Positions 7,066 to 25,498 of a DNA stretch of 64,000 nucleotides are shown here, piece by piece. A model generated the notes under the pieces. The model was not told the DNA's origin, searched no databases, and was given only the letters and a program-made list of their open reading frames with translations. A program made the translations under genes and the position numbers. How positions within the stretch are numbered: the stretch's first letter is position 1; every line of letters begins with the position of its first letter. The stretch covers positions 310,001 through 374,000 of the forward strand of contig JAHQRK010000031.1 of assembly GCA_019828595.1 (NCBI GenBank), given 5' to 3'. The DNA comes from Aphanomyces cochlioides (taxonomy: Eukaryota; Oomycota; Saprolegniomycetes; Saprolegniales; Verrucalvaceae).

Positions 7066-7712
7066 ATTTTTAGCCATCCTACTCTCACGATGGTGTAGCA
7101 AACCCGACGGCTAGTTCGAGAAGCCTGTGGAAGCATTCCCAATTGGTCTCTTCGGCCTTCTTGGGCTCCAAGTGATATTGTTTGGTGTGATCCATCTACC
7201 ATGACAAAAACAAACTTACTAAGGCTTTGCTACATTTGTCTCGGACAAATTTTCAACAACGATTTTTGTGGAGCCATACGCTTTGACGAAGGACACGTTG
7301 TTTTCGATGATAATTAGTTTATACCTTGAATAACACTTCAGTTGCATTGTAGCTCATCATTCCTTGGAAATTTCCATTACTCAATGGCCACAATGAATAC
7401 TGTTCATTGTGGTTGTCATTCCTGGGAAATTTGCGTTATTCTGTTATCACAATGAACAATTTTTCAACAGCCAAATGATGCTTCAAATACATACTGTTCA
7501 TGCCATGGAGTTCGGATAGTTAGGAGAGGTTATACGGAAGAAGTCCAGTTCAGCTCCATCATCGTTCAACATCTGTCGAATGGCCAGACGACAAGTGTTG
7601 TACAAGGTACATTTCACCTGCAATTGGGCTGTATAAATGTCCAAAATCCTTCCTGGGCGGCGGAGGCAGCGGCTTGATCGGATGGCGGCAACTTGGATAC
7701 TGAGTCGGTGGG
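7066..7712. other. No gene recognised
   Basis: Only short scattered frames. Two near-repeated phrases containing CACAATGAA and TTCATTGTGG (7380-7460) suggest small diverged duplications. No RNA gene seen until the U2 fragment. Confidence 0.35.
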
Positions 7713-7780
7713 GGAAATCAGTTTTCACACTGATTAGAACAGATACTACACTTGATCTTAGCCAAAAGGCCGAGAAGGTA
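7713..7780 (-). pseudogene. U2 snRNA 5' fragment (truncated copy)
   Basis: The minus strand from 7780 reads TACCTTCTCGGCCTTTTGGC and continues through the branch-site recognition element GTGTAGTATCTG to stem-loop IIa (AATCAGTGTGAAAACTGATT). It is nearly identical to the first 68 nt of the U2 gene at 7985-8172. It then diverges completely, with no Sm site and no stem-loops III or IV. It is a truncated pseudogene, or the 5' half of a U2 gene broken by an insertion. Confidence 0.85.
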
Positions 7781-7984
7781 GACCACTATAAGCATTAGAA
7801 CGTGCCCAGCATTGCTTAGAATCTGTTCGTGGATAGTTTTCGTGCTAGAGGGGAATTTCGTAATAATATCCGTCCAAAATAGAGGAGCTGGAGACTCCAG
7901 TAGTAACGAACACAAAACAAACTTAACGTGGGAAATGAAAGTTGATGATAGGCAGATATGATTGTGGAGGATGTGATTGATGAG

Positions 7985-8172
7985 TTAGGCTTCACAAGGG
8001 AGAAGTGCTGGGCCCTCGGAAACCTGTCCAATTGGCAGTCGCAAGCGAGCTGTCCAGCCGGAGTCTATAAAAATGAATGTGAAAAAAACTCCATACAAAG
8101 TATGGAAATCAGTTTTCACACTGATTAGAACAGATACTACACTTGATCTTAGCCAAAAGGCCGAGAAGGTAT
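7985..8172 (-). ncRNA. U2 spliceosomal snRNA
   Basis: U2 snRNA pairs with the intron branch site in the spliceosome. The minus strand from 8172 begins ATACCTTCTCGGCCTTTTGG, followed by the GTAGTA branch-pairing element. Stem-loop IIa follows (ATCAGTGTGAAAACTGAT), then IIb (CCATACTTTGTATGG). An Sm-type site (CATTTTTATAG region) comes next, then stem-loop III (CAGCTCGC/GCGACTG). A terminal hairpin is closed by GGTTTC/GAAGCC. The length to 7985 is 188 nt, the usual U2 size. It lies 204 bp upstream of a truncated second copy on the same strand. The exact 3' end is inferred. Of the three U2 sequences here, only this one has all domains. Confidence 0.9.
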
Positions 8173-14661: not shown

Positions 14662-14709
14662 CTCCCCGTCCGGGAATTGAACCGAGTGACAGGCGGGCGG
14701 TTAACTGAG
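14662..14709 (-). pseudogene. tRNA-Asp-like 3' half, separated from its 5' half by a LINE
   Basis: Read on the minus strand, the end is GGTTCAATTCCCGG (T-arm), then ACGGGGA plus discriminator G (acceptor 3' strand) and a TTTTT terminator. Before it stands CGCCTGTCAC, the anticodon loop of eukaryotic tRNA-Asp (GTC). The expected 3' anticodon stem and variable loop are missing, so this is not a whole tRNA. The acceptor strand ACGGGGA pairs with TCCTCGT at 25498-25492, the 5' half on the other side of the LINE. A 23-bp stretch (14686-14708) resembles 23927-23946 and is the likely target-site duplication. Confidence 0.75.
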
Positions 14710-17137
14710 TATATTAAAGAATTAATATGGCCCAAAAGGGCCGCAAACTAGACTTTCGATTTTGGCTTCATAGGTCGCATAATAAATATGTGTTGCGAAT
14801 TGTGACCTTGGAAGGTTCTTGTGGAAAATCGTCCAGTGTTGCTTAACCGAAATAGACTTGGGTGAGGGGTAATTTGGAGGGACCATGGCAGAAAGAAAAT
14901 GTTGCAAGGCGATTCAGACTGTGAAAAAATTCAACAGTATAGAGAAGAGTCATACAAGCAACTTTCTTTTCATGACCATCTTGATCCGAGTTGGTGGTGG
15001 CGAGATACAAGGCAATTTCGGGTTGACCGTGGAGGACTTGAAAATTTGTATACAAAAGTCTTGATAAAAATTCCAAGTGGAGGTACGCAGTGAAAAAGGC
15101 CAAGTAAACAAAAGCTTGAGTTGGGGTCGATCCATGAATAAATAAATCGACAGGAGAGGAAGGCCAAAAATTGCCAAAAGGGTCGAGACAGAATAAAATC
15201 AGGTCCAATAGAAATAAATTGGCAAGAAGTAGGAGCCCAAAAAATCCAAACGAGGTCGTGGCCAATTTAATTCGACCTCAGGAGGCCGAATTAAATCGCT
15301 GGAACCAAGGGAAAAGCTGGGTTTGAGAGAAAGGACCATCCAAAATAAAATGTTCTTGGACGATTTGACCAGCCAAAAAAATCACCGAGGTCGGCCGTTC
15401 CATGACAAGCAAAGTTGTTTTCAGGAGCGTCTTCATCGGAGTTGATGGCGGCGAGATAGAGAGAAAATCCCTTGTGGGTTAGGCATTTGGAGAAAACCTC
15501 CCAAAAATAATAAACAGGGTAAAATATTTGGGAGGTGCCATTTTGACATGCGCCATGCGCGGATAGGTCTCGAGCGCGAGCATCGTCGGAGCTGGATTTC
15601 GAACGGCGCCACGGTCCATGGAGCCACTTGGCAGGATCGTAGCCACGATACGTACGAAGGATAGCGCACCATTAGAATCGCCATAGGTAGCGTGTAGCGG
15701 GAGAGCGCTCGCCAAAACCAGTGATTTTCCAATCGGGCGTCTCGGCAGCGAAACTTGATGGAGTCATAACTTCCGAACGGCTATGAGAGATAGCCATACT
15801 TGGTGTCCTCTATCAATGGAGGGTAGCCATGTATGCACCATATTAATCGGTGCATTCAGAGTCGTGTAGCTGAAATGAGCTACGATGGTCGTTTTGGAGC
15901 CATATCGGCTCAAAATGGTTTGGAATCGGAAGTTGGGTTCCTGTGCTGCTATCATGGTGCTTGATAGCTCAAATCCATCGCGAGGACATTCTCGAGCCTC
16001 TCCACCTCTAAGTTGGACGATCGGAGTTGATTTGCATTCAGGAGCCATTCCGATGAGTTTTAGCCATTTCGCCAAAAGTTGTCGGGGCGACGGCAAGTAG
16101 GTTCCATGGCTTCAATCATCGCTCTTGATGGCTTAAAACACTCGTCTAGCCATGATAGGATGGAAAAGAGTCATAGCCGGTCGATTGGAAATGATTTGCG
16201 ACCTGTAGCCGACTTAAGGTGTTGTAGCCAATGGATAGGGGCGGTTGACATTTTGGATTGAGGATTGCGAGCAAACCAGGATGTTTCAGGGCGTTCTAAC
16301 GCTTTGGCTAGTCGTAATAAGTGGTGGAGCCACCCACTAGACCCCTAGATGTCACTCGGTGACCGTAGGGAAAGCGTTCGAGTTGTCCTGGAGTTTCACC
16401 GGTTTGGGTGACAGTCCAAAATGGGTTCGTGGTTTTGAACCATAGATCTGCAATATATGCTAGTTGGTGTCGGCATAGAGCTCAATTCAACTGAGGTAAC
16501 AAGCCACTAAACGTAGAAATCCACGCAGTAGGTCGAGAGAAATTTTTTCACTTTTGGTGACGGGTTGAAACCGGTTCAAAATGGGTGTCACCGAGTCGAA
16601 TTTCCTTTCGAATTTTGTTTTGCGAGTTTGGCGAGGTTTGAACACTCGCAAACTGGCACATCTTGAGGAGGAGACATGGGAGAATCTTTTAGGCACCGTG
16701 GCGCAATTTTCCCGAACAAAAAGTGTGCACTCGATTTTGAGATTTCTCCCCCAGGGGGAGACGTCGTAACAATTTTCAAAGTGATGTTGTGAGAGAACCA
16801 CAGCACTTTTTTGCGGTCTAACGCTTGCGTTTGTCTGCTTGGGATGTCTAGCAACCCTGAAGACCATTAGAATGTCTGAAATGATCGTCAGGGCAATGCC
16901 AGAGTTGTCGATAGTTTTGCCATTTTGGGTGAACGGATAAAGTCAAGTCGATTTTGTGAACGAATCGGTATGAGATAAAGTTACTTGATGTGTTCATAGA
17001 GCTCTGTTAGCTGGGGCTAACGAGCCATCAAACGCATGAAAAGGCCAAGTGGGTCGCGAGAAAATTCACTTTGAGTTTTCCCATTGATGTTGGTGACTTA
17101 GGTGAATTTCTTCAAAGGTTGCAATATAACATGCCTT
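14710..17137 (-). other. LINE 3' region without a clear gene
   Basis: About 2.4 kb between the end of ORF2 and the tRNA 3' half. A hydrophobic minus frame at 14843-15265 (140 codons) and shorter ones at 15433-15732 have no recognised domain. There are diverged internal repeats: about 14975-15010 resembles 15425-15460, and about 16460-16560 resembles 16980-17085. A strong palindrome lies at 15266-15295. An unusually long 3' untranslated region, or an additional small element, would both fit. Confidence 0.45.
15266..15295. repeat. Near-perfect 30-bp palindrome
   Basis: TTTAATTCG at 15266-15274 and CGAATTAAA at 15287-15295 are perfect arms. The inner ACCTC and GAGGC continue the stem with one mismatch around an AG centre. 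RNA from either strand would form a stem of about 14 bp. Confidence 0.9.
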
Positions 17138-20100
17138 TTAAGATTCCAAGGTCTCGTTTTGAGATTGTGGTAAGATTTGGGCAGAGAACCACTCATTCTG
17201 GTGCAAACTATGAAGCACCGATGTCAAGGAAGCCTTCGTGGAGTCGTCCAAGGAGGCTCGATTGAGTTGGTACAGATGCCGCTTTATAATGTGTCCTGCT
17301 AATATGGAAATCGTCATGGGTGTTTTGTTAGGCAAATCTGGACGGTAAATCCGGTCGCACCGAGTTTTCCATATTGTATACCAAATACACGATAAAAAAA
17401 TTGGCCACAGCAAATTAAATCCAGCTTGGAGGTCTTTGTCTTGGAGTGCTTTAGGAGAGAAGAATATTTTTTCCATGGTAGTTGGCCAAGTAAAGTTAAG
17501 GGATCTGGCCATGGATTTAAATGGACTCCAACATGCTCGAGTATATGGACAGTCCAAGGTGAAATGTTTATACGTCTCCACTTCATGACAAAAAATACAA
17601 GCGTTCAGGATGTCGTCCGAGTACTTGAATTTGTATCGGAGAGGTAAGGCTCGTATAAGCAGTCGATATATGAAAGCACTGTACGTTGGCAGAATAAATT
17701 TGGGCTGCCTGTAGAATGCGACCACTTTAATATTTTCCTTGTGGGCATAAAAATCCGAGGGTACCAATAAATGCGCTGTGGGTAAAACCTCCTGAGCCGA
17801 TTTGGATTTAAATTCATGAGTTAAATCATCCAAGGTGGCATCAATAAAGGGTAAAAAGCCATCTTTGAAATTTCCAGCCCAAGTAATTTCGGTAGCCGTC
17901 TGCCGATAAGGTGTAGGCTGACGAAAATTAATTTCTGTATCCTCGGGTGGAGATGGTAGAATAGCTTTAAGTCTCCCGTGTAGAGCATACGACCATTTAT
18001 GATCGGGAGCGGCTAAATGGCGTCTTGAACATTGAGATTTAATCCAATCTAACAGGATTTTCCGATCCATAAGATTGCCATTTTCATCGAGTAGGTGGCG
18101 AACATGGGTAAAATTTAATTTTGCCAGTGATACAGCATAATCATAAGTCTTTGGATAGCAGTGTTCAAAGACAGTTTTCTCCAAGGGTAAGAATTGATTG
18201 TGCCAAAGTGGAAAATTTCCATCGACTTGTACTGTGGGAAATTTAAGTGGGGTTGGAGATAAGGATAACCATAGTCGAGTAAATGCTGACCAGAGAGGTG
18301 GAGCCTTATCTTGGTGTAATATGGCTTTGTACATACTAGAGTGTGGACTCATAAAAAGGAGATCATAAAAATTTCCCCATGGACTGAAGGCTCTGGAGAG
18401 TAAATATTCTCCAATGGATAGCCATGCTGGCAATTTCGTTTGACCATACGAGTTGTGAGGTGGTGCTAGGAGTAGCTTGAAGCATTTAAAGGTCATGACC
18501 CGGTGTAGTTTTGACCACCAGTGGGTAGACGATTTAAATCCGAGACAACCTTGTGCTTTTGGAAGGAAAATAATGTCCGAGTTGAATTGATGCAAATGAC
18601 GTTGAGTCGAATATGGATCAAGTGTATCGCCGTGAATAAATTGCTTGGCGACCTTGTCGAATAGTTTGGCATATTCTTTGTCGATCGGAATAAATTGGAG
18701 TTGATACCAGAGCACAGGAAAACAAATTGACCTTAGGATTGTCACTTTTCCGGGTAGGGTTCGTGCTCGATAAGACCATAATTGTGTTCTTGTGACCAAT
18801 TTCTCCAAGAGCCAATTTAAACGTGTTGTGGCTGTGATGTTGGGAGAAATTAAAAGGCCCAACGATTTAGCAGGTTTGTCATCAGTAATAGCTAAGGGTG
18901 CCAGGTCTGGAGGTAAATTGGCATGGGTTAATAATTCTGTCTTGGAAAGATTTAACTTGAAACCAGAGACATCACAGAATTTTTGACGATGTCGAGTTGG
19001 AGTTGCAACGTCGATGCATTTTTGGAGTACAATTGGGAGTCGTCTGCATAATAGCTCCCGGTGTGAGTGTGATGACCAATGCGTATGCCCAAATCTTTTC
19101 TCTTGCGTATGGCTAAACACATAGGTTCTAGCGCCAAGACAAATAAAAGAGGTGATAATGGATCGCCTTGTAAAACACGACGTTGGATCTTAAATGGGTT
19201 GGATAAATGTCCATTGACAATAATTCGTCCACGACGATTTGAATAAAGCACTTTGACCATGTTGAGAAAGGACGGTGGAAAATTAAATTCCTTCAGGGTT
19301 GCCAGTAAATAGGAATGGTTGACCCTATCAAAGGCTTTTTCAAAGTCCAAGAGGGCCACAATAGACTCGGAGAAATAAAACTTCATAAAGTGATTCAGGT
19401 CTTCCAAGCGCAGTAAATTGGTTTGGATTGACCGACCACGAATAAAACCTGTTTGATCCGGGTGGACTATCGACTGAATGATTCTCTGCATTCGTTCTGC
19501 AAGGACCATTGTGAGGATTTTCACGTCGATATTGACCAAGCTGATGGGACGGTAATTTTTTGGGAGTAGTTTGTCGACCTTTTTGTACAGCAGTACAATT
19601 AAACTTGTCAATTGGGAGGGTGCCAAGTTGGAGTGAGAGTTGATTTGGTAATAGTATAGCATTTCCAAAGCCAGGGACCATTCATGGGGAAACATTTTCA
19701 AGATTTCGTAGGGCAGTGAATTTGGTCCGGGTGTCGAATTCCGTTTGGAGTGTTTAATGGCAAAATAAAATTCGTTTGCCGTGAGAGGAGCTCCAATAAA
19801 TCTCTTGTCGTCGATATTGAGTCGGCGAGATATCAGAGTTTTTAAATACTTGGCCATTCTTTCCTTGTCAACTGCCTCATGGTCGCCATACAGGTCAGAA
19901 TAAAACTCGTGGAGTGTCGAGGAAATTGATTGTTGATCGGAAGCAATATTTCCATTGGACATTTTGAGTGCCTTGAAGGGAGATTTTTGTAAAGGGATTG
20001 TGCGAGGTGGTTTCAGGTGAAATTTGGTACACCTTTCCGCTTTCTCGAGGTGAGTTTTCATAGCAGTGTCTTCCCGAAGGACTTTTTTCCTGTCATGATA

Positions 20101-21218
20101 CTCATGTATGGCAGCTTGAATTGTTTTGATACGTGCCATCAAGGACGCACATGGGGCGATTTGGTAATCCCGAATCAATAAAGCCAGATCCATAGATAAT
20201 TTCTTGAGTGGCCTTTGTTGATTTTCGACCAACTCGTCGTGTAGGTATTTTAATTGATTTCGCATGTTGGTGATCATGGTGTCGAAATGTAGACCAACAT
20301 TTGAGTTTAACTGGGTCTTGGTAAGGAAGGTTTCAAGTTGACGAGAGATAATTAATTTGGCCTTGTCATTGTTGAGAACCCATTGTGGTGTTTTCCATGG
20401 ACCAGGTCCCATTGATACTGCTGGACGTTTGGTCAATAATTTGCAGGGAGTGTGGTCAGCATGAGGAATTAGCTCCAGGTGACGAAATTTCAGATGACGT
20501 AGGGGTGCCATAGCAGATGAGATGAAAATATAGTCAAGCCGATTGACAAATTTTGGACTTGTGAAAGCACGTTTCAGTGGATTTGTTGACGGAAAATATC
20601 AACGAGGTGTAAATCTTGTAGCCATAGATTGAGTTCATATGAGCCATGGGTCGCATGAGTCGAAGGACGGCATGAATCTAATGTTGGGGAGAAAATAACG
20701 TTAAAGTCGCCACCAACAATATGAAAAGCTTCGGGTGGAAAATCGCGAGGCAGATCATTAAAAAAATCCACACGGTCGTGATAGTCGTACGGAGCATAGA
20801 TGTTGTGAATAAAAACCGGGATATTGTCCAGAGTGGCCGATATAAGTAAATAACGACCACGGAGGAGAGGTTTGTCCCAAGAGTGGTTTAAATTGGTGCA
20901 ATTGTCCAGAGGGCAGGGATGAATAAATGTAGCAAGGCCTCCAGTAGGATGAGAGGTATTGCTGATGGAATAAATTGGCTCCTCGTAGAAGAAAGTGCCT
21001 TGTTGGTTGGTATGTTTTTTCCAGTAGAAATTGATTTTGCCATGGTCGCTGGGGTAAGGCAGTCGAGTTTCTTGGATAAGTGAGATAGAGTTTTTGAGGA
21101 GAAAGTTCTTGAGAAGGTGGTGGAATGAATTGGAGAGACCATTTGTGTTGAGAGAAAACAAGCTAATATCCCAGTCGATAATGGCTTGTGGTAACGCGTT
21201 AATTGTGGTCACAGTCAT
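17138..21218 (-). pseudogene. LINE ORF2: endonuclease-reverse transcriptase, frameshifted
   Basis: Three frames together form one protein. 21218-20574 is an APE-type endonuclease: SLIQETRLP, GGDFNVIF, then after a shift near 20570 NRLDYIFIS and HADHTPC. 20511-18952 holds the reverse transcriptase: YRPISLVNIDVKIL, LLDFEKAFDRV, QGDPLSPLLFVLAL and the catalytic YADDSQL. A second shift near 19000 leads to the C-terminal frame down to 17138, which contains the zinc-knuckle-like CHEVETYKHFTLDCPYTRACW-type C/H cluster (zf-RVT). Together this is about 1,350 residues, normal for a LINE ORF2. It would nick the target DNA and reverse-transcribe the element RNA. The catalytic residues remain but the frame is broken at least twice. 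Confidence 0.9.
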
Positions 21219-21318
21219 GATTAATATTTGGGTTTTGGGTTTTTGACTTCAAGTCGTTGTGTTGGTTTGGGTCGGGGTGTGGTGATTGTGGTTTTAATTG
21301 ATTTTGTGTGTTGGCGAG

Positions 21319-21684
21319 TCAATTGAAGTCTTCATTTTCACCATCGCCAAGTTCTTTGTATTCGAGTTCAGGAGCCTTTTCGTCCGGAAGTAAAGTTAAC
21401 AAGGCATCAGTATCCGAGTCAAAGCACTTCGTAGGGTCAATTGTTTGGAGTGCCAGATCTTTCACAATATGGCACAGCTCTTCTTCAATTTTATGATGTT
21501 GCACCAGGTTTCCAGCAGCAGGACTGGAAATTAATTTAATCAAGGAGGCGTCCGTGATTAAATTGCAATTGGGCCAACGGTGGACTTTGTCTTTCAGGCA
21601 CAGATTAATATACTCATCGTTCGTATAAGCTTCAGGTGCTCTGTTGGACAGAAATAGATCGATTGCTGCTAGAGATCTTCTCAT
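21319..21684 (-). CDS. Small LINE-encoded ORF overlapping ORF1 by ATGA
   Basis: A 121-codon frame starts at an ATG (21684) whose last two bases lie in the TGA stop of the upstream frame (ATGA overlap). That arrangement permits termination-reinitiation. The product is acidic at its C-terminus and has no recognised domain. It could be an independent small ORF or the shifted C-terminal part of ORF1. Confidence 0.55.
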   Translation of the reverse strand: MRRSLAAIDLFLSNRAPEAYTNDEYINLCLKDKVHRWPNCNLITDASLIKLISSPAAGNLVQHHKIEEELCHIVKDLALQTIDPTKCFDSDTDALLTLLPDEKAPELEYKELGDGENEDFN

Positions 21685-23840
21685 GTGGTAGCTTCGTCAT
21701 TGGGACACAAACTTTGGAATAGATTTGTGGGGGTGTAATTTTCAGGAGGAGGATGGCCATGCTGTTTTTGGTAGTACGAGGTAAATCGTTCTTCATCAAT
21801 AGCTTGCATGGGATTTTCTCCAGCCATTAAACGTATAATTCCTCTCGAGGCAATTAAATTGGATGCGATTTTGCGAGATTTTGGGTCCATATAGATATTT
21901 CCAATAAAGCCAGGTTGGTTGAGGGTTTCATCATGAAATACCAATGGGTTGGTGGATTCATTCAGTTTTTTCTTCAGCTCTGTGATTTGAGCCTTCACTT
22001 TGGCTCCTGCTGGTTTCGTAGAGGCTGGAATTTTTTTGGGTATCGTTGATTTTGGGGACGAAGCAGGACGTTTTTTGGGCGTGTCGGTAGGAACGATATC
22101 GAGATGGAATCGAGGAACCGTTGTGCCTGGTGTTGTCACGTCAGAGTCGTCTGAACTGAGGATAGCAAATCGATTTTGTGTTGGAATCGAGGTAGCTGAT
22201 ATTTTGTATTGGGGACCTTGAATAAAACCGGCTCGAGTTGGTTTAAATTCGTCCTGGGATAAATTGGGTTTGTCTGTGAGAATAATATTATTCTCGCTCG
22301 AGCCCTTGGGTGATTGTGGAGGATTTAATATCTTCTTGGGTTGAGCTACCATTTCTTCCTCTTCGATATTTGATTTCTCCTCTTGTTCCATGTCCACATC
22401 GCTTGACAGGTCGACAAAGTTTTCCTTGTCATTTTGATTTTCCTTGGGATCGGCATTAGGGGAGTCGGAGTTTTCAGTTGTGCCAGTATTTTCCTTTGGG
22501 GTATTGGGTGGTTGGTTTTCTGTCGATGGATTTTCGGGAGCATCAGGTTTTTCCTCTGTAGCGTTTTCCTCGACTTGGTCTGTATTCTTTTTAGCGTCGT
22601 CTTTTTGTTTGGCTTTTTCCAGTCTAGCTTAAACGCTGGGAGGGACCGTTTGATTGAGGGATCGAATTTTATGTTGAAAGACATAAACTTGGTTTTGGAT
22701 TTCAATTTCTCTCAGAGGCTCGCCTCCATCATCTGGTACCAATGCCAAAGGAGGAGTTTCGGAGTAAAAAAGGACTCGAAATTGGGTCGAGCGTAATAAA
22801 TTGTCAGTACTGGGGTTAAAACCAACAATGACGCAGTGAGTGAGCTCTTCCAACTTTTCAATATCGCTTTTTGAATATCGTGATCCACCAGCTTGTTGAA
22901 AGTAATAGAATAAAGTTTCGAGTGGGGAGAATTCAGGCACAGTAAATTCTTGTTTTCCCAGACGAAGAGAGGTTCCACAGGTTTTGCGCAATAGATCATC
23001 GTCATAAAACGTCAAAGAGAGAGTAGTCAGGTTTTTCTTGTGGAACAGAATTTCCTTGAATTTCGATTCCCAAAGCGTACCCGGGTTTTGGGTAATTAAA
23101 TTCGCTCGGATTTGGTAGTCCTTGACTTGACGGAAAGCTTCTCCCAGAGGAATGTCCACAGTGCAAGCCTTCGAGGATGGAGTTTTCAAGATGTCTTCAA
23201 TGAATTCATCCATAGCAGTAGGGTTTTGGCGGAATTCTCGAGCTTGTCGAATTAATTCATCCAATTCAGAGTCGTCAATAGGATGCCCACCAGTGTTGCG
23301 AACCAATTGGGTTTTCACATGGCGGGCTCCTTCCCATACATTATTTTTCTTCGAGTTGGTTTTTTTGCCTTCGTTGTTGGACGAAGCTTGTTTTTTGGGG
23401 TTGGAGGGTTTGGCAGGAGAGTTTGTCCTATCTTTGGAGGGATTTTTCGAATTAGATAAAACTCGTCCATGATGGGTGCCGTCAGGATGGGTAATATTCT
23501 CCCCAGGCTTGTCAGAATCCTTGGGTAATTTGCCACCATTGGCGTCAGAGGCAGGTTTTTCGTTGGAACCATTAATTTCCATACCCATTCCTGCATCATC
23601 GGGTCCATTTTTTTTGTCCATATTTCGACCAGTGTCACCACCTAAGTCGACACCATCTTGGTTGGAAACATTTTCCCTACGAAGAGAGTCGGACGCAGCG
23701 GCGCTGTTCCTAGAGGAAGGAGGTTTTTCAGCGGCTTCTCGGCTCGGACCGGGCGTCGCTTGGCTAGGGTCAGGCGTCGATTCACGTTGAGCGAATCGAG
23801 ACACCGTCGAAAGGATGATTTTTTTCGCGCTAGAGGCCAT
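21681..23840 (-). pseudogene. LINE ORF1 with one in-frame stop
   Basis: From the ATG at 23840 (MASSAKKIIL) a long frame runs to a TAA at 22629-22631. The same frame then continues without a break to 21681, so a single nonsense codon splits a protein of about 720 residues. The N-terminal third is Ser/Pro/Asn/Lys-rich and disordered. The middle (about residues 180-400) looks folded and may bind RNA. The later part is acidic, then Lys/Pro-rich. No CCHC knuckle is evident. LINE ORF1 proteins usually coat the RNA. Confidence 0.75.
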
Positions 23841-23954
23841 GAGTTGTCGAAAGCACCTAAAAAGCAAGATTTTCCGTTGGGGGGCTGTGGTAGTTTAACC
23901 TACAAAGCAAAAACGAAAGTGCCCGCGTGGCAGGCGGGTTTACTGACCACTATA

Positions 23955-25486
23955 AAGTGATGGAAGGAATGATATGCCACACACAGTTTTATGAGAGTTC
24001 TCACCGGTGTGGTCTCGAATGTACGTGAGACTCAAACAGATCAATCCTAGAGCTTTTATGGACTTCTAATGAGCTTCACATGTCGTGTAGACGTCTACTC
24101 TTCATACTGCACTACAATATGTAAATCTGGTGAAGAAATACTGATATGCCAGTAGACCAAAACGAGAGTTTTAGTACTTTATCTTGCGACCGCAACTTGC
24201 GATAACCTTTTCACAGCGACGAGGCATACTCGCCACAAGTGTCTGGAGCAGACTTAGATCCAACTCGTCCCACACTTTTCGAATACAGGCGATGAGCTCG
24301 GCTCTGGTCGAAAACTTTCGACGACCGTTGTCGTAGACTCTACGAGACATGATACCCCAGAGATTTTCGATGGGGTTCAAGTCTGGTGACTTGGCAGGCC
24401 ATTTAAAAGTCTTCACGTCCACCTCAGGGAGCTCAAACCACTCTTTCACCAAACCAGCGGTGTGGATAGGACCATTGTCTTGCTGAAAGACAAAGTCGTT
24501 GCCGTGCAAAGCATGAGCAAAAGGAACCATAAATTCGGAAAGCGTATCCACGTACGCAGCAGCATCTTGCTTGCCATCAAGAAGGGCCAACTCGGACTTG
24601 CCGCGGCTGCTAAAAGCACCCCAAAACATGACTCCACAGCCTCCATTTTGCGCTTGGAGAAGTGCTCACGGCGGCCACGTAGATCAGCCCAGTAGTAATT
24701 AAAGCCATCGGGTCCGTCAAGATTCCATTTCTTCTCGTCGGGCCAGATAACTTCATTAAACTGGGCTCCCCAGTCCTTCGCCTCTTGAGCCCAAGCAACC
24801 CGAGCTTTTTTGTGGGCAGGAGTCATCATCGGCGCAGCCAATCGCTTCTTGAATTTCAGTCGCCCGCTCTTATTTAAGAGCTGACAGACTCGACGGGGCC
24901 CAACAGGAAGGGAATTCAACTTGACAAGCTCGGCAGCAGTGTACTTGCCTGAAACAGCATCGCGGATGATGCGCCGATGAAGCTCATACGAGATCAAAGA
25001 GCGTCTTCCTGTCGACCGAGCTTGTCCGTACGACTTGGGATTGCGCAAGAACCCACGAATACATCCGCGGGAGCGACCGAGCTCATTGGCAATGTAGATA
25101 TGGTCCTTCCTTCTCGTTGAAGGACGAGAGCTTCAATTCTCTCATCTTCAGAGAGTGGATCGCCTTTGGGCATCGAAGAGGCTTCTATTCAACGTACAAA
25201 TATGAGATCATTCAATGCTCGTATATACATACTTTCTCCGCTTACGTAGGATCGCTTATGGACCCTCCAGTGCAGTGAAACCTTAGAGTGGCATATGTTT
25301 ATTTCTCGCGCCATTTCTATCTCCCGCCATTTTGAAGAGTTCATAGCCATCCAGCATCCTCTTTTGGCGCTTGAAATGTGTGCCCTCTCTTTGCCTTTCT
25401 ATTGGACTATAATCCTCCATGTATTGACCAATCATCAAAGAGATGTCAACGATGGAAGTAGTGGCATATCATTCCTTCCATCACTT
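23955..25486 (-). mobile_element. Tc1/mariner-like transposon, 1,532 bp, TA duplication
   Basis: The terminal inverted repeats are perfect for 26 bp: the left end is AAGTGATGGAAGGAATGATA from 23955, and the right end is its reverse complement ending at 25486. TA flanks both ends (23953-23954 and 25487-25488), the standard Tc1/mariner target. It carries one transposase gene on the minus strand, now frameshifted. It inserted into the D-arm of the tRNA-like sequence. Perfect repeats with a broken gene suggest a fairly recent insertion that can no longer move itself. Confidence 0.95.
24171..25173 (-). pseudogene. Tc1/mariner-type DDE transposase, two frameshifts
   Basis: The start ATG at 25173 gives MPKGDPLSEDERIEALVLQR. 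A shift near 25090 leads to IANELGRSRGCIRGFLRNP, a helix-turn-helix, then a longer frame with WPDEKKWNLDGPDGF carrying the first catalytic Asp. A second shift near 24640 leads to the frame with MFWGAFSS, FQQDNGPIHTA (second Asp) and SPDLNPIENLWG (Glu), ending at 24171. I count 36 residues between the second Asp and the Glu, so it would be a DD36E type. The domains are complete but the protein cannot be made from this copy. Confidence 0.9.
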
Positions 25487-25498
25487 TACTAACGAGGA

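Follow-up and report, generated by a model that had tools for sequence, protein, structure and literature searches.

The 64,000-nt stretch of Aphanomyces cochlioides DNA analyzed here (contig JAHQRK010000031.1, positions 310,001–374,000; hereafter the window) carries on its minus strand a tRNA-Asp gene split by a full-length long interspersed nuclear element (LINE), and the upstream half of that gene is split again, in the D arm, by a Tc1/mariner-type element (Table 1). Both insertions had been claimed in an earlier note on this sequence, and both are confirmed: the tRNA pieces lie where the note had placed them, and the mariner has terminal inverted repeats (TIRs) and a DDE_3 domain. The note's view that the LINE prefers its site and did not land there by accident is likewise supported, as junctions of its copies across the genome fall mostly in tRNA and 5S rRNA genes.

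Table 1. Features of the split tRNA-Asp locus and of the LINE open reading frames (ORFs) in the window
Feature	Positions	Strand	Evidence and remarks
5′ end of split tRNA-Asp (TCCTCGTTAG; covers the acceptor strand and the beginning of the D arm)	25489..25498	-	match to tRNA-Asp of the C9 array
Tc1/mariner-type element	23953..25488	-	28-bp perfect TIRs (TA at each end counted); DDE_3 domain
Remainder of tRNA-Asp 5′ half (D arm, anticodon arm)	23921..23952	-	upstream copy of duplicated anticodon arm at 23937-23922
Full-length LINE, 9,220 bp	14701..23920	-	5′ ACTTTCG, 3′ ATACTCAGTTAA; frames interrupted in this copy
tRNA-Asp 3′ half	14662..14700	-	downstream duplicate of the anticodon arm, decayed, at 14700-14686; T arm; acceptor strand
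ORF1, first fragment	22629..23867	-	ORF1 continues in fragments to about 21319
ORF2, APE-like endonuclease fragment	20574..21218	-	Pfam Exo_endo_phos E 0.0016, below its cut-off
ORF2, reverse transcriptase	18952..20511	-	RVT_1 E 6e-32; best PDB match L1 ORF2p E 1.5e-46
ORF2 C-terminal part, zinc-binding motif	17138..19120	-	zf-RVT E 1.5e-5, 26 bits vs cut-off 27.5

Minus-strand positions 25498–25489 and 23954–23921 together make up the 5′ half of the gene; in a comparison with a tRNA-Asp gene from the array on contig C9, 41 of 43 positions agree. The duplication of the anticodon arm is imperfect here, its downstream copy being damaged. Two oddities look like local decay, since other copies retain both anticodon stem strands on both sides: the anticodon mismatch (GCC against GTC) would be a point change, and the missing second anticodon stem strand of the 3′ half a small deletion or rearrangement of this copy. 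ARAGORN called no tRNA over the whole window, and none on the joined window site, where the duplication fitted poorly and the 3′ side has lost part of the stem. The LINE may have inserted before the mariner, or the mariner may have entered an intact gene before the LINE did.

The 5′ end of the LINE (ACTTTCG) recurs at 64 places in the genome and its 3′ end (CTCAGTTAA) at 133, with positions for 100 of the 133 among the matches listed; a search of viral contigs with the tail pattern gave no exact hit. A copy on C24 has an ORF2 open for 1,371 codons from stop to stop, with RVT_1 and zf-RVT domains, and an ORF1 frame of 772 codons; it is 97.5% identical to the window copy over 9.1 kb. The reverse transcriptase (RT) is of the LINE type, the best R2 entry in PDB reaching E 1.2e-22 against the L1 ORF2p match in Table 1. 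In a tree that includes mammalian L1, the RT stands apart from L1 and groups with relatives from Aphanomyces and Achlya (Saprolegniales; support 100/99). A host protein of this genome shares 73–75% identity with proteins of Aphanomyces astaci and A. invadans, as expected of an Aphanomyces or close kin. The Pfam score of the endonuclease is below cut-off in the open copy as well (E 0.25). In a 15-row alignment, N24, D171 and N173 are invariant and E50 nearly so; the columns N, E, D, N, D and DH, which we take to be catalytic residues, are invariant or nearly so, the last of them read by eye in the open copy because the window row stops earlier. By these columns the domain upstream of the RT resembles an apurinic/apyrimidinic (APE) endonuclease, despite the weak Pfam scores. 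Target-site duplications and 5′ truncation are present, as in products of target-primed reverse transcription. Judged by sequence, the element is an APE-type non-long terminal repeat (non-LTR) retrotransposon (L1/Tx1-like). A Utopia- or NeSL-type element (restriction-like endonuclease, U2 target) was also considered and is contradicted by the APE-like domain and by the tRNA and 5S targets.

We assigned 129 LINE 3′ ends to their surroundings, using the union of pattern searches and flanks; the patterns differ slightly, and the union is not exactly the 133 places above. The survey covers the tRNA types with insertions. A host gene transcribed by RNA polymerase III (Pol III) was named for 102 of these ends, namely tRNA-Ala (67, including AGC, CGC and TGC anticodons), Val (24), Asp (6), Thr (2), Phe (1, named by eye from one 3′ flank alone) and 5S (2). 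Among the 23 Val places on C15, 11 were read directly and 12 deduced from position and next base. Six further ends (C4, C12:1458908, C15:554351, C17, C31, C33:158864) are tRNA-like or decayed by eye.

We then joined the two flanks of individual insertions at the duplication, trimming up to 13 extra letters from 5′ flanks by script, for 30 LINE rows (22 full-length pairs, 7 truncated copies and the window) and 11 rows of a partner element described below. Rows were chosen rather than drawn at random, with one or a few per tRNA array and other array copies omitted. Left out of the LINE rows were C23:530047 (nested, non-tRNA, both flanks present) and three copies whose 3′ ends were not where predicted: C25:463979 (non-tRNA 5′ flank), C34 (Ala 5′ flank) and C59 (5S 5′ flank). 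ARAGORN called a tRNA across the joined flanks in 18 of the 30 LINE rows; two more lie in 5S genes, two are tRNA-like by eye (the window and C12:1458908), and eight are neither. The 5S insertions (C33 and C63) use a single site of the gene and have Rfam 5S matches of 41.7 and 42 bits across their junctions (cut-off 38), and C59 and C63 also have 5S matches of 84–91 bits. Assuming that tRNA and 5S genes occupy 1% of the genome, and for rows chosen as described, 20 of 30 rows in such genes has a probability of about 3e-33; counting host gene families alone (7 of 15 tRNA or 5S, C23:530047 uncounted), it is about 6e-11 under the same assumption. The earlier note had named two findings that would speak against targeting. 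Copies in unrelated sequence did turn up in part (the eight rows, C23:530047 and, by its 5′ flank, C25:463979), so that the preference is strong but leaky. tRNA pieces belonging to the LINE consensus did not: the flanking pieces vary from copy to copy, and we reject the idea that they are part of the LINE.

Across tRNA hosts the insertion point lies in the anticodon stem, on its 5′ strand. In all 26 rows with an ARAGORN tRNA (18 LINE and 8 partner rows), the junction immediately precedes tRNA position 28 in Ala, Asp, Thr and Arg hosts and position 30 in Val and Gly hosts, and the duplication extends to positions 41–46. The duplication in these rows is 14–18 bp long, essentially the anticodon arm; it measures 13–14 bp in 5S, 10–18 bp in the eight other LINE rows and 19 bp in one tRNA-like row of the partner element. 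The length of 20–23 bp proposed earlier for the target-site duplication in the window lies outside these ranges. The LINE is in sense orientation to the host gene in all rows read. The cut sites (CCGCTTAG, CCTTGACG, CCCTTCCA, CCGTTCGC) have no long sequence in common: 3′ flanks read start with CC, with the one exception of Phe (CT), and CC is the sole element common to almost all sites. Each host tRNA gene holds 12–19 further CC dinucleotides over both strands, and about 317,000 CCGC sites are expected in the 76.2 Mb genome (extrapolated from the window).

Many LINE copies are 5′-truncated; in tRNA hosts the truncation points are LINE nucleotides 7578, 8225, 8311, 8330 and 8674. Because truncation points and duplication lengths (14–18 bp) differ even within one host type, these copies represent separate insertion events. 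Over the first 1.5 kb, with values for 18 of 31 copies, identity is 99.5–99.9% among insertions hosted by Ala-AGC, Ala-CGC and Val genes and by one site outside tRNA genes on C13; more distant copies (96.6–98.7%) are those in the window, at C12:1023091 (Ala), C12:2565066 and C23:3730878. Identities of up to 99.9% between insertions in different host genes mean that a single young lineage makes use of many tRNAs. The LINE has seemingly been active recently, and by these identities the targets of the young copies are not divided among old subfamilies.

The partner is a short interspersed nuclear element (SINE) of ~356 bp with a tRNA head and a LINE-like tail. On C24 it lies inside ~1,204-bp units (L145, C24:8000–11000), with the same insertion site and the same duplication as the LINE. 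Four of 15 SINE loci were omitted from the joined-flank rows: L150 (flanks identical to those of L149), L152 (unlike 5′ flank), L153 (tandem) and L161 (C24 array). ARAGORN called a tRNA in eight of the 11 rows (Ala, Val, Gly-TCC, Arg-ACG); two others are tRNA-like by eye (C10, C19), and the row on C5 has no clear duplication. The head matches the Rfam tRNA model at 31.5 bits (cut-off 29) in all three loci scanned, as a Pol III-type head should, and ARAGORN called no tRNA within the element itself. The SINE tail TAATATACTCA equals the LINE tail near the terminus, the SINE ending in GGTAATATACTCAATAAA and the LINE in TTTAATATACTCAGTTAA. Because tail and insertion site are shared, we infer that the LINE machinery moves the SINE. 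The SINE tail pattern has 136 matches in the genome; among the matches listed, 77 of the first 100 lie on C15, home of the Val array, and all four C15 SINE flanks read are Val.

Taken together, these data probably reflect an APE-type LINE that is tethered through Pol III complexes to tRNA and 5S genes and has an additional nick preference for CC or CCGC, the Pol III steering being the part that we infer. Tethering is favored because a short motif with ~317,000 sites would not on its own place two-thirds of the rows in tRNA or 5S genes, with sense orientation throughout the rows read and, for tRNA genes, a single arm as the target. A bolder version, to which we give an even chance, is that the Pol III-tethered LINE recognizes a gene class and not a sequence, cuts almost every tRNA gene that offers CC in its anticodon arm, doing so within that arm, and carries with it a tRNA-derived SINE inserting by the same route. 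Mechanistically, the LINE complex would be recruited by something common to Pol III genes, be it a contact with TFIIIC, TFIIIB or Pol III or the shape that DNA takes within the bound complex. Next, the endonuclease would nick the antisense strand at the closest GG that it accepts, preferably GCGG, and the exposed GG would serve as primer for reverse transcription, which would start at the GUUAA end of the LINE RNA. SINE RNA would be copied in trans through the tail that it shares with the LINE, and tandem tRNA arrays would let the host tolerate gene losses and multiply inserted units. The ORF1 protein of TRE5-A interacts with TFIIIB subunits (PMC5911963); by analogy this contact lends tethering plausibility, although it is not evidence on the present LINE.

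Several points weigh against tethering. No Pol III gene was seen at 21 of the 129 assigned 3′ ends, 4 of them in one nested cluster on C23. The eight joined-flank rows without such a gene comprise 7 of the 22 full-length pairs and 1 of the 7 truncated copies, and adding C23:530047 makes them 9 of 31. An Rfam scan of 20 junction loci returned no RNA family, but gene halves would escape such a scan, and it also missed the 5S halves among these loci. CCGC is over-used at non-tRNA junctions (6 of 17 vs a window background of 4.4%, P 6e-5), and part of the site choice therefore lies in the sequence. ORF1 has no recognizable domain in Pfam, the open C24 copy included, and the first two ORF1 fragments of the window copy matched no Pfam family at E 0.01. 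As for the SINE, its tail shares only 11 consecutive end letters with that of the LINE and folds differently (z 0.80 vs −2.26).

The CCGC excess also speaks for the main rival, direct sequence recognition, in which the endonuclease, together with other LINE domains, would read a loosely defined motif, for example CCGC(T/C)T, of a kind that anticodon stems often contain, with no Pol III factor involved. The non-tRNA sites at C2 and C9:1320851 begin with CCGCTTCG, as does tRNA-Ala(CGC), and Dada DNA transposon families are described as switching tRNA types by local sequence similarity (PMC8869645). We nevertheless consider it unlikely, though it is the strongest of the alternatives: Val and Gly share only CC with the Ala site, Phe only C and 5S only CCG, the duplication ends at positions 41–46 whether it starts at 28 or 30, and CCGC is expected far too widely across the genome. 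Recognition of shape, with the anticodon stem-loop read either in extruded DNA or, while the gene is being transcribed, in an RNA:DNA hybrid, would fit the near-exact correspondence of duplication and stem-loop and the C-rich stretch in which the 5S site starts. The eight non-tRNA duplications have no evident hairpin by eye, however, and we regard this reading as improbable.

Two further explanations can be largely set aside. Unequal exchange within arrays could multiply one ancestral tRNA insertion and so mimic targeting, and such copying is real: LINE 3′ ends lie 1,555 bp apart on C22 and SINE tails about 1,204 bp apart on C24. As a complete explanation it is contradicted and very improbable, since separate events are needed to account for the several isotypes, the dissimilar flanks, the five points at which LINEs in tRNA hosts are truncated and the duplications of 14–18 bp, and the hosts are spread over several contigs. 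The specificity for tRNA-Asp first proposed for this LINE is refuted, and we give it next to no credence: it would account for the window copy and five copies in the C9 Asp array, but 96 of the 129 3′ ends that were assigned have a 5S gene or a tRNA gene of another type as host, and Asp, with 6 of 129, is one of five host amino-acid types besides 5S.

Known target-specific elements each share part of this pattern. TRE5 and TRE3 of Dictyostelium (L1 clade) have an APE endonuclease, RT and zinc finger and use tRNA genes as a class, TRE5 also 5S; they insert outside the gene at a fixed distance, 40–54 bp upstream or 40–150 bp downstream (PMC5911963), whereas the present LINE splits it at position 28 or 30. 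The NeSL-related LINEs NeSL-1_TV (tRNA-Pro), LIN15_SM (Arg) and LIN25_SM (Glu) are likewise specific for tRNA genes, but for one type each, and they belong to the restriction-like endonuclease group (PMC4640811), in contrast to the APE type and many tRNA types found here. Utopia, also an oomycete LINE maintained inside multicopy small-RNA genes, differs in its U2 target, its restriction-like endonuclease and, in oomycete families, its RNase H (PMC4640811). Dada DNA transposons count the anticodon region and 5S among their targets, some families in two tRNA types, but have a DDE transposase, produce 6–7 bp duplications, are named by one main tRNA type, and in the anticodon region lie opposite to the tRNA gene, unlike the sense orientation of the LINE (PMC3706591, PMC8869645). 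In stringent LINE/SINE pairs the SINE tail corresponds to that of the partner LINE, as here, while the passages of that source are silent on any gene-specific target that both partners would share (PMC3747384). A literature search over titles, abstracts and passages, mostly without subscription papers and with Repbase outside its scope, returned no report of a LINE inside many tRNA types or of a tRNA-gene-specific SINE.

Target-specific LINEs in the surveyed literature, as far as its abstracts and passages go, mostly pair one element with one gene. The present LINE uses five tRNA amino-acid types (Phe by eye and from the 3′ side only; seven with the SINE) plus 5S, and one young lineage at one structural position makes steering comparable across natural targets. 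If tethering holds, it would represent an in-gene form of Pol III targeting, and the LINE/SINE pair sharing a gene-specific site would include a tRNA-derived parasite of a tRNA-gene parasite. The LINE also has a link to the extensive tandem arrays of tRNA genes in oomycetes, in which inserted units are multiplied; targeted insertion into multicopy genes is of practical interest too.

Large tandem tRNA arrays are present on C9, C13, C15, C22, C24 and C60, with units of about 1,319 bp for Asp, about 646, 664 and 832 bp for Ala, and about 1,180–1,186 bp for Val. In Phytophthora infestans, tRNA genes are described as numbering in the thousands and as being arranged largely in tandem (PMC9584435). 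By pattern, 114 intact Ala genes (exact) and 116 Val genes (≤ 2 mismatches) are left in tandem units; the Asp pattern (≤ 1 mismatch) gives up to 129, a count that includes filled sites such as C9:1628247, as the pattern lies within the 5′ half.

At C23:520764-530084 (L101, L102), several LINE 3′ ends stand in close series, separated by the short sequence CCAAAGCAGTGACAA; directly behind one such tail lies a LINE 5′ end. The LINE 3′ ends at C4:1036371, C17:1021888 and C33:158864 are followed by nearly identical sequence resembling tRNA-Ala (CCTCTTCGCATCGTGCAGG or similar), which may be a dispersed repeat of tRNA origin. The window also contains a U2 small nuclear RNA gene (7980-8172, minus strand); U2 genes are Utopia targets in oomycetes elsewhere. 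A second U2 match lies ~200 bp further on (7677-7781, minus strand), agreeing by eye over its first 65–70 bases before the sequence diverges.

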